In this document: one piece after another, positions 2,532-21,577 of the stretch
Numbering within the stretch: position 1 is the stretch's first letter
Layout: each line of letters opens with the position of its first letter
Assembly (NCBI RefSeq): GCF_017094485.1
Contig: NZ_CP064786.1
Coordinates: 2,794,788-2,858,787, forward strand
DNA length: 64,000 bases
Origin: Natranaeroarchaeum sulfidigenes
Lineage (GTDB): Archaea > Halobacteriota > Halobacteria > Halobacteriales > Natronoarchaeaceae
Direction: 5' to 3'
Notes under the pieces: model-generated
What the model saw: only the letters and a program-made list of their open reading frames with translations
Databases searched by the model: none
What the model was told of the DNA's origin: nothing
Made by a program: the position numbers and the translations under genes

Positions 2532-2855
2532 TCAGGCTTCGTTACCCCAGTTAGGTTGATTCTTGATTCTTGTTCGGACACGTTCAATGTCGCTATCATT
2601 TTCGATATCCAATACGTCTATCATCATATCTCGTGTTCCTTCAGTAATTCTTGGCTTTGGATCGCCACGTCGCTCAAAACTAGCTATTGTCTTCCCAAAG
2701 CTCGTTTCATTCCATTGGTTTTTAACAGGTACAACCCGATGTGCTGCAAGACACTTCATGAGTTTCTTTCGGTTCTTCTGTTCAATTGCCTCCTTCACAC
2801 AAAATTCAAAGTTGTCTGGCCCCGATGGCAAATCAAAGGCGGGCATATCCGACAC
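2532..2855 (-). CDS. Orphan protein in an AT-rich patch, unknown function
   Basis: 107 residues, soluble, not recognised. Composition differs from its neighbours: rich in Asn, Lys and Ile (for example EQKNRKKLMKCLA and VRTRIKNQPNWG), whereas host proteins are Asp/Glu/Ala/Arg-rich, and codons are AT-rich at third positions. This and its place beside a tRNA gene with copied 3' ends suggest horizontally acquired DNA. The start ATG at 2855 is the first in frame; an alternative Met lies three codons in. It could be a remnant of a larger element. Confidence 0.5.
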   Translation of the reverse strand: MSDMPAFDLPSGPDNFEFCVKEAIEQKNRKKLMKCLAAHRVVPVKNQWNETSFGKTIASFERRGDPKPRITEGTRDMMIDVLDIENDSDIERVRTRIKNQPNWGNEA

Positions 2856-3064: not shown

Positions 3065-3133
3065 CGCCAGGACAGGGATTTGAACCCGATGCAAATCCTC
3101 GCAGACGCTCGGATTTCCGTGGTTCAAGTCCCT
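3065..3133 (-). repeat. tRNA-Ser 3'-end palindromic module S1
   Basis: Bases 3065-3087 are an exact 23-bp copy of the tRNA-Ser T-arm, acceptor strand and discriminator. The T-arm part (3074-3086) is answered by an inverted copy at 3121-3133 (12 of 13 bases pair). Between them sits an inner stem AAATCC (3093-3098) / GGATTT (3111-3116) around GCAGACGCTC. The whole can fold into one long hairpin with the acceptor 3' strand as tail. It is not a complete tRNA: there is no D-arm, anticodon arm or 5' acceptor strand. Confidence 0.8.
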
Positions 3134-3142
3134 CTCGTTCGG

Positions 3143-3202
3143 TTTTCACGGAGACGGCTCACTCGTCGCTGTCACTCCTCGTTCGTGTTGTCTCCGTGAA
3201 AA
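3143..3202. repeat. Perfect 13-bp inverted repeat between modules S1 and S2
   Basis: TTTTCACGGAGAC (3143-3155) is perfectly repaired by its reverse complement at 3190-3202, with a 34-base loop. The right arm ends exactly where the next tRNA 3'-end copy begins. The left part contains GAGACGGCTC (3151-3160), similar to the AGACGTGCTC core of module S2. A strong cruciform or RNA hairpin is possible. Confidence 0.75.
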
Positions 3203-3278
3203 CGCCAGGACAGGGATTTGAACCCGATGCCAGACGTGCTCACATCCGTTGCGCGCGTCTGCCGTGGTTCAAATCCCT
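3203..3278 (-). repeat. tRNA-Ser 3'-end palindromic module S2
   Basis: Same plan as S1. Bases 3203-3225 are the exact 23-bp tRNA 3'-end copy, followed by the same CGATGC as in S1. The outer arms AGGGATTTGAACC (3212-3224) and its perfect complement (3266-3278) pair over 13 bp. Inner arms CAGACG (3231-3236) / CGTCTG (3256-3261) flank a core holding AGACGTGCTC and TGCGCGCG, both also present in the module after tRNA-Val. Confidence 0.8.
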
Positions 3279-3289
3279 TCAATCGGGTA

Positions 3290-3318
3290 TTTGCCACTCA
3301 CGGATTGTTCGTGGCAAA
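3290..3318. repeat. Hairpin directly after the tRNA-Ser 3' end
   Basis: TTTGCCAC (3290-3297) and GTGGCAAA (3311-3318) form a perfect 8-bp stem with a 13-base loop, starting 4 bases beyond the tRNA discriminator base. It occupies the place that the 13-bp inverted repeat occupies between S2 and S1, so hairpin and module alternate. It could act as a tRNA transcript terminator. Confidence 0.65.
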
Positions 3319-3321
3319 ATA

Positions 3322-3403
3322 CGCCAGGACAGGGATTTGAACCCTGAATCCCGAAAGGGAACACGCTTTCCAGGCGTGCGCCTTACCGTTCGGCCATCCT
3401 GGC
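3322..3403 (-). tRNA. tRNA-Ser (anticodon GGA)
   Basis: On the minus strand the acceptor stem GCCAGGA pairs with TCCTGGC, followed by discriminator G at 3322. The anticodon stem CACGC/GCGTG encloses loop CTGGAAA, giving anticodon GGA for Ser codons UCC/UCU. A long class II variable arm (TTCCCTTTCGGGA) and T-arm CAGGG-TTCAAAT-CCCTG are present, as expected for tRNA-Ser. No intron is seen and CCA is not encoded. Its 3' end is copied twice downstream (3065-3087 and 3203-3225). Confidence 0.95.
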
Positions 3404-21372: not shown

Positions 21373-21447
21373 GGGTTTGTGGTCTAGTCTGGTTATGACA
21401 CCTCCTTGACATGGAGGAGGCCGGCAGTTCAAATCTGCCCAAACCCA
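21373..21447 (+). tRNA. tRNA-Val (anticodon GAC)
   Basis: Acceptor stem GGGTTTG pairs with CAAACCC, followed by discriminator A. The anticodon stem CCTCC/GGAGG encloses TTGACAT, giving anticodon GAC for Val codons GUC/GUU. The T-arm is GGCAG-TTCAAAT-CTGCC with a 5-base variable loop. 75 bases, no intron, no encoded CCA. The T-arm and acceptor 3' strand are copied, with one inserted base, at 21554-21577. Confidence 0.95.
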
Positions 21448-21459
21448 CTTCAATTCTCG

Positions 21460-21481
21460 CGCCGCTCACTTGCGAGCGGCG
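21460..21481. repeat. Hairpin directly after tRNA-Val
   Basis: CGCCGCTC (21460-21467) and GAGCGGCG (21474-21481) form a perfect 8-bp GC stem with a 6-base loop, 13 bases past the tRNA end. Its place matches that of the hairpin at 3290-3318 after tRNA-Ser. It may terminate the tRNA transcript. Confidence 0.65.
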
Positions 21482-21499
21482 TGTGTTTGAGTAACGTGC

Positions 21500-21577
21500 G
21501 GGCAGTTTGAACGAGACGAGTCGCGCGCAGCGTAGCGAGCACGTCTCGCCGTAGTTCACAATCTGCCCAAACCCACT
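21500..21577 (+). repeat. tRNA-Val 3'-end palindromic module V1
   Basis: GGGCAGTTTGAAC (21500-21512) is an inverted, slightly decayed copy of the tRNA-Val T-arm. The direct copy at 21554-21577 runs through the acceptor strand, discriminator and three further bases, with one inserted C. Inner arms GAGACG (21513-21518) / CGTCTC (21542-21547) enclose a core containing, on the minus strand, AGACGTGCTC and TGCGCGCG at nearly the same spacing as module S2 at tRNA-Ser, and in the same orientation relative to the tRNA. Confidence 0.78.

Follow-up and report, generated by a model that had tools for sequence, protein, structure and literature searches.

The array of hairpins and tRNA-end copies behind tRNA-Ser(GGA) in Natranaeroarchaeum sulfidigenes is one case of a genome-wide and order-wide haloarchaeal phenomenon, and we read it, with a probability of about 0.55, as a set of palindromic cassettes for which tRNA 3' ends serve as docking sites and T-loop recombination as the means of spread, the moving form probably being a folded single strand. 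The cassette as proposed has the order A-I-B-D, comprising a hairpin (A), an inverted copy of the T-arm (I), a second hairpin (B) and, as D, a repeat of the 3' part of the tRNA that begins in the T-loop and closes with the discriminator base. In archaea and bacteria alike, mobile DNA docks mainly at the 3' ends of tRNA genes. Tiny non-coding, strand-specific palindromic cassettes that track tRNA identity throughout a genome would form a new class among mobile or recombining DNAs. They would suggest that genetically tractable organisms, Haloferax among them, possess a recombination activity yet to be described, and would account for a large share of the unannotated DNA that follows tRNA genes in haloarchaea. 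Further, their isotype-matched inverted copies would constitute a natural experiment on the way in which a mobile element takes up sequence from each new host gene. No description of tRNA-docked hairpin cassettes was found in the open-access literature searched, and an earlier account elsewhere is possible.

In the window, by which is meant the whole stretch of 64,000 nucleotides that was analysed, the tRNA-Ser(GGA) gene predicted by ARAGORN lies on the minus strand at 3322-3403, and its 3' end is followed on the same strand by two tandem units, each in the order A-I-B-D. The last 23 nt of the gene (3322-3344; repeat D0) begin with the T-loop GG, end with the discriminator base (GGGTTCAAATCCCTGTCCTGGCG) and are copied exactly in D1 (3203-3225) and again in D2 (3065-3087). 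In unit 1, hairpin A1 (3288-3321; arms TATTTTGCCAC and GTGGCAAATA) starts T-rich and contains CGAAC-AATCC-GTGAG, a 7-bp stem enclosing tandem G.A; it is followed by an inverted T-arm copy complementary at 13 of 13 positions (I; 3266-3278; AGGGATTTGAACC) and by the inner hairpin B1 (3231-3261), whose CAGACG/CGTCTG stem is related to the order-wide type-1 core described below. In unit 2, hairpin A2 (3143-3202) is formed by a 13-bp inverted repeat (TTTTCACGGAGAC/GTCTCCGTGAAAA) with arms at 3143-3155 and 3190-3202, the inverted T-arm (I; 3121-3133; AGGGACTTGAACC) is complementary at 12 of 13 positions, and the inner hairpin B2 (3093-3116; AAATCCGAGCGTCTGCGAGGATTT) has the stem AAATCC/GGATTT, so that the inner stems of B1 and B2 are unlike each other in sequence. 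Within the array, each D is followed by a T-rich start. A sequence-only reading of this locus had described T-arm copies, hairpins and 23-bp copies, and all of these are present. The 286-nt stretch holding the array folds with z-scores of -5.7 (as DNA) and -6.6 (as RNA) relative to shuffled sequences. An Rfam search of the region matched the tRNA and no other RNA family, and plasmid and phage collections held no DNA match to the array. Directly beyond the array, in AT-rich DNA, lies a 107-aa ORF (2532-2855, minus strand) for which Pfam returned no match and which is possibly the remnant of an island.

The same window holds a second tRNA with such an array, which the sequence-only reading had overlooked. 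The tRNA-Val(GAC) gene (21373-21448, plus strand; ARAGORN) is followed on the plus strand by a single A-I-B-D unit of its own (21454-21575), consisting of hairpin A (21454-21483), I (21500-21512), a type-1 B core (21520-21545; GTCGCGCGCAGCGTAGCGAGCACGTC) and D (21554-21575), in which the loop reads TTCACAAT in place of TTCAAAT. Across the genome, an isotype-matched D copy lies within 400 nt behind 24 of 42 tRNAs, compared to 1.0% for mismatched tRNAs, and together with the fold scores these frequencies make a chance origin of the tRNA-Ser(GGA) arrangement very unlikely. The sibling congener yields closely similar figures (25/42; mismatched 0.7%). In a set of 203 D copies from 33 isoacceptors, I differs from the local T-arm by 2.25 mismatches of 13, as against 3.81 from other T-arms.

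Beyond the two congeners, the module pattern GATTTGAACC-N15..45-GGTTCRARTC has matches in 177 of 394 Halobacteriales genomes (none with the reversed control) and in 0 of 132 genomes of the same phylum outside Halobacteriales. Within the phylum the pattern is thus confined to Halobacteriales, and two matches fall in DPANN assemblies. In named haloarchaeal genomes (Haloferax, Halorubrum, Haloarcula, Halobacterium, Natrinema and others), nearly all matches are linked to tRNAs, beginning 30-80 nt behind the gene with second units at about 200 nt. Many loci were retrieved by means of a T-arm pattern, which biases the proximity counts that come from them. Less biased are the tRNA survey of this genome and the search with the type-1 core only. 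The core (GTCGCGCGCAGCGAAGCGAGCACGTC) has 13 copies in the genome, 13/13 in the orientation of the tRNA, of which 12 lie directly behind a tRNA and the 13th in a displaced tRNA-Tyr array. A covariance model of the core (R1), built with the T-arms left out and trained on tRNA-linked copies, has matches in 93 of 118 haloarchaeal genomes and in 40 of 48 genera, and in each of the 30 loci examined a tRNA on the same strand precedes the core by 58-479 nt, many isoacceptors being represented. Placement of the cassettes only behind tRNA genes, and with it specificity for this target, is established. The sequence-only reading had made itself dependent on a similar arrangement beside tRNA genes in related genomes and on a conserved core; the arrangement recurs across the order, and the type-1 core is such a core.

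The D copies begin at two places, either in the T-loop (about 23 nt) or in the 3' strand of the T-stem (16-17 nt), and the short type is accompanied by a different hairpin, GTTCGCAAACAAACCGCGTTTGCTCACTCC, and by an inverted acceptor strand. A second cassette type, which combines a GTTCGCAAACAAACCGCGTTTGCTCACTCC-like hairpin with the inverted acceptor strand, was seen at four loci (L202, L195, L222 and L286), and in some acceptor-based modules the G.A strand is opposite to the tRNA. The DPANN matches, from Nanoarchaeia and Woesearchaeota assemblies, are modules behind tRNA-Asn and tRNA-Ser (L138, 6008-6061; L087, 6377-6439), and the module in L138 has a B of haloarchaeal type.

The B hairpins sort into a few families, among which type 1 is the commonest. 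In an alignment of 24 type-1 modules from many isoacceptors, compensatory change is seen in the inner stem as well as in the I-D helix, with 11 pairs altered on both sides and 48 compensatory cells as against 18.4 upon shuffling (0/500), and slid controls gave far lower values. The strand is fixed relative to the tRNA, the ratio of same to opposite being 27:0 for type 1 and 37:1 for type 5. Another feature of general occurrence is a hairpin of the form C-GA-RC-loop-GY-GA-G, whose tandem G.A pairs lie on the tRNA-sense strand and which within 400 nt behind tRNAs (129 kb, all loci) occurs 80 times on the same strand and 11 times on the opposite one, and elsewhere 8 times in 1.2 Mb. The loops of these tandem-G.A hairpins are GNA triloops in 30 of 40 cases, and GNA triloops are very stable in DNA. 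In addition, in 121 of 172 cases I-B-D folds more stably as a DNA hairpin from the tRNA-sense strand than from its complement, which together with the strand counts for types 1 and 5 and for the G.A hairpin argues that one strand is the relevant one. Strand specificity and covarying structure are established properties of the modules. A kink-turn reading of the hairpins was dropped, as the tandem G.A is symmetric, as was a bulge-helix-bulge reading, there being no 3-nt bulges, and a shufflon-like inversion model, since B never flips (the type-1 ratio above). At Halorubrum-like tRNA-Ser loci (L322, L324, L348 and L356), the loops of B hairpins contain nested hairpins.

The strand bias would suit a functional RNA equally well. 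Such an RNA could be a structured tRNA trailer with a role in processing, termination or protein binding, its hairpins and I-D pairing maintained by selection on the transcript, with D produced by local duplication, and it would find its support in the fixed strand, the T-rich starts after each D, the strong fold with its covariation and the conservation of a 26-nt core across the order. However, about 40% of the tRNAs in this same genome have no array, the acceptor part of D is left without a pairing partner inside the module, the presence, number and order of arrays shift between sibling species, and one hairpin jumps between isoacceptors, such that a functional RNA appears unlikely. The sequence-only reading had raised a decoy for tRNA 3'-end enzymes or integrases and a transcript-end structure as candidate roles. 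A purely transcript-end role, in particular, fits poorly with the gain, loss and dispersal between isoacceptors set out below, and the literature on tRNA trailers and terminators in Haloferax yielded nothing relevant.

A comparison among relatives for gain or loss of a module, which the sequence-only reading had proposed, revealed that the presence, number and order of units all vary. Between the two congeners, unit number is unlike in 12 of 18 occupied tRNA pairs, with gain and loss unpolarised. The tRNA-Cys site is empty in this genome and filled in the sibling with about 100 bp made up of A-I-B and a D copy, and the 23-bp D copy is what is duplicated between the empty and the filled site. 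At tRNA-Ser(GGA), the sibling has the same B1 and the order of A1 and A2 is swapped, and at tRNA-Arg(CCT) and tRNA-Ser(TGA) there is an exact duplication of D-A-I with a different B. At the tRNA-Ser site of 40 Halorubrum-like species, anchored on a common downstream gene, 0, 1 or 2 units are present in 18, 19 and 3 species. When a unit is inserted or lost, the tRNA stays intact and the D copies form the boundaries. However, as a counter to insertion, ordinary recombination between D repeats yields the same empty site as non-insertion. Dispersal is evident in that the A and B hairpins are common to isoacceptors, with D and I matched to the local tRNA; the common pieces of A and B measure 20-34 nt within one genome, the median longest common string being 9. 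In one genome (G039), tRNA-Pro(TGG) and tRNA-Ser(TGA) are followed by an identical 58-nt block (GGATTTGAACC-B-GGTTCAAATCC) that stops exactly at the T-loop repeats and has flanks specific to each tRNA; in the sibling genome (G012) this block recurs unchanged at tRNA-Pro and in variant form at tRNA-Ser. It is thus established that the tRNA end is duplicated and that units turn over and disperse.

It may be asked whether these events call for a dedicated enzyme at all. In an archaeon that is polyploid and recombines at a high rate, arrays of this kind could be generated and spread through tandem duplication, through deletions between D repeats, and through gene conversion and palindrome-associated template switching, and gene conversion could shift hairpins between tRNA loci with no dedicated recombinase, which weighs against the cassette reading. 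Exact tandem duplications of two-unit blocks, as at tRNA-Ser(TGA) of G039, the exact D-A-I duplications, the lengthening by I of the palindrome around B, and loops with nested hairpins all accord with such an origin. However, the restriction to tRNA 3' ends, the fixed strand, an order-wide core that is missing elsewhere in the phylum, and a transferred block that ends exactly at the T-loop repeats would all be left unexplained, and we regard an origin by these general processes as improbable.

A third explanation would have the modules be what ordinary integrative elements leave as scars or use as att sites at tRNA 3' ends, the elements being SNJ2-like or having tyrosine integrases of other kinds. 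It is largely refuted and deserves very little credence. In its favour, D is what tRNA integration leaves behind, displaced arrays have an integrase gene beside them in three genomes, and a 4.7-kb insert at tRNA-Tyr may hold a B-containing att copy; against it, the islands examined (at tRNA-Ile, in L179 and in L120) have att copies of 13-19 nt with no A, I or B, and scars would not be expected to have a common hairpin core or an isotype-matched inverted T-arm. Ordinary scars would comprise integrase or cargo remnants with no palindromic core, whereas hairpin units of about 100-140 bp are found here, with the core in the 93 genomes noted above. The claim of the sequence-only reading that simple attachment scars do not explain the modules therefore holds, because the islands examined have only the short att sites and no such hairpins. 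The three islands are inserted between the tRNA and the array. One integrase family, with the start EPLDPxTAxEMY, borders the displaced arrays of the three genomes (L120, 1239-2255; L179, to 2511; L292, 4161-5183, minus strand), and none of the 13 tyrosine-integrase matches in the genome is consistently linked to arrays. The 4.7-kb insert (L292; G000:C1:2229287-2234113) encodes a tyrosine integrase and a zinc-ribbon protein and separates tRNA-Tyr from its array; at its right end there may be a tRNA copy that contains B, in which case the attP of this element could itself be such a module.

The palindromic cassette thus remains the preferred reading, and the proposal that a palindromic element uses tRNA 3' ends is well supported by tRNA-linked recurrence, turnover and a conserved core. 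Cassettes would enter, exit and be exchanged via recombination in the T-loop sequence GGTTCRAATCC and its inverted copy, and since this sequence is almost universal among tRNAs, a hairpin could move between isoacceptors. The substrate is probably the tRNA-sense strand folded as single-stranded DNA, as the strand constancy and the GNA triloops suggest, which would place the process at the level of DNA rather than RNA. Recombination would be mediated by a putative site-specific recombinase, for which a tyrosine recombinase of the host or of an element is a first guess. However, whole-cassette exchange alone would leave the match of I to the isotype beyond the T-loop unexplained, and either palindrome-extending template switching or selection for the stem would be needed and may account for it. 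The net effect of the cassettes is most likely selfish or neutral and dispensable for tRNA production.

Integrons offer an analogy for this model. In integrons, cassettes are docked at an attI site, and attC, with the core GTTRRRY / RYYYAAC, is folded as a single strand; by analogy, attC-like sites would dock here at an attI-like tRNA end. As in integron cassette arrays, tandem units are present at one docking site, where they are gained, lost and shuffled, and as in attC, the end of the unit is a palindromic arrangement of inverted and direct core (I..D) around a variable inner stem, in a folded site of which one strand is conserved. The core sequence, however, differs from that of integrons, with GTTCAAA in D and TTTGAAC in I deriving from the tRNA T-loop, and the units, unlike integron cassettes, are about 100-140 bp long and non-coding, with dozens of tRNA genes serving as docking sites in each genome. 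The broader idea of a haloarchaea-wide integron-like system, in which a conserved recombinase would move non-coding hairpin cassettes as folded single strands with tRNA genes as docking sites, is put forward as a tentative possibility.

Other known systems share some of these features. Archaeal elements with SSV- and SNJ2-type integrases target tRNA 3' ends, which they rebuild while a copy of the 3' end remains downstream (PMC8371274), a direct repeat that is present here too; however, such elements span kilobases and have an integrase of their own and short att cores, whereas the present units are about 100 bp, palindromic and equipped with an inverted T-arm. REP/BIME sequences (associated with RAYT or IS200/IS605 Y1 transposases) and haloarchaeal PATEs, which are IS200/IS605-related palindromes (PMC3119063), are likewise short, non-autonomous, palindromic and strand-specific hairpins, whereas the units described here are tied to tRNA 3' ends, of which they carry a 23-bp duplication matched to the isotype. 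IS200/IS605-derived elements, moreover, make no target duplication, in contrast to the D copy of the empty/filled comparison. A Y1 (HUH) transposase was considered as mobiliser and rejected for want of any link, as PF01797 gave no match either in this genome or in several genomes rich in modules. The haloarchaeal small mobile repeats SMR-A/B have terminal repeats and no target duplication and prefer IS605/PATE targets (PMC3119063). SMRs and MITEs resemble the units in size (80-140 bp), in being non-coding and in insertion into palindromes, whereas the unit here extends from a T-rich start to D with no terminal repeat, and has a 23-bp target copy and tRNA targets. Casposons and CRISPR adaptation share duplication of the tRNA 3' end at insertion and a repeat-unit-repeat layout, but no terminal inverted repeats were seen by eye in the present arrays, and their "spacers" are homologous palindromes.

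Other palindromes were also encountered. Viral contigs that matched the module pattern proved to contain other palindromes and not tRNA arrays. An Armatimonadetes MAG (L075, L081, L114, L123, L136 and L145) has a single 37-nt palindrome, GATTTGAACCTGCGCATGGGCACTAGAGGTTCAAATC, on many contigs and away from tRNAs. In Bifidobacterium genomes and in viral contigs (L078, L079, L187-L189 and L191-L194), near-perfect hairpins (GATTTGAACCGTGGACCTCTGG..CCAGAGGTCCACGGTTCAAATC) are built from pieces of tRNA anticodon and T-arm.
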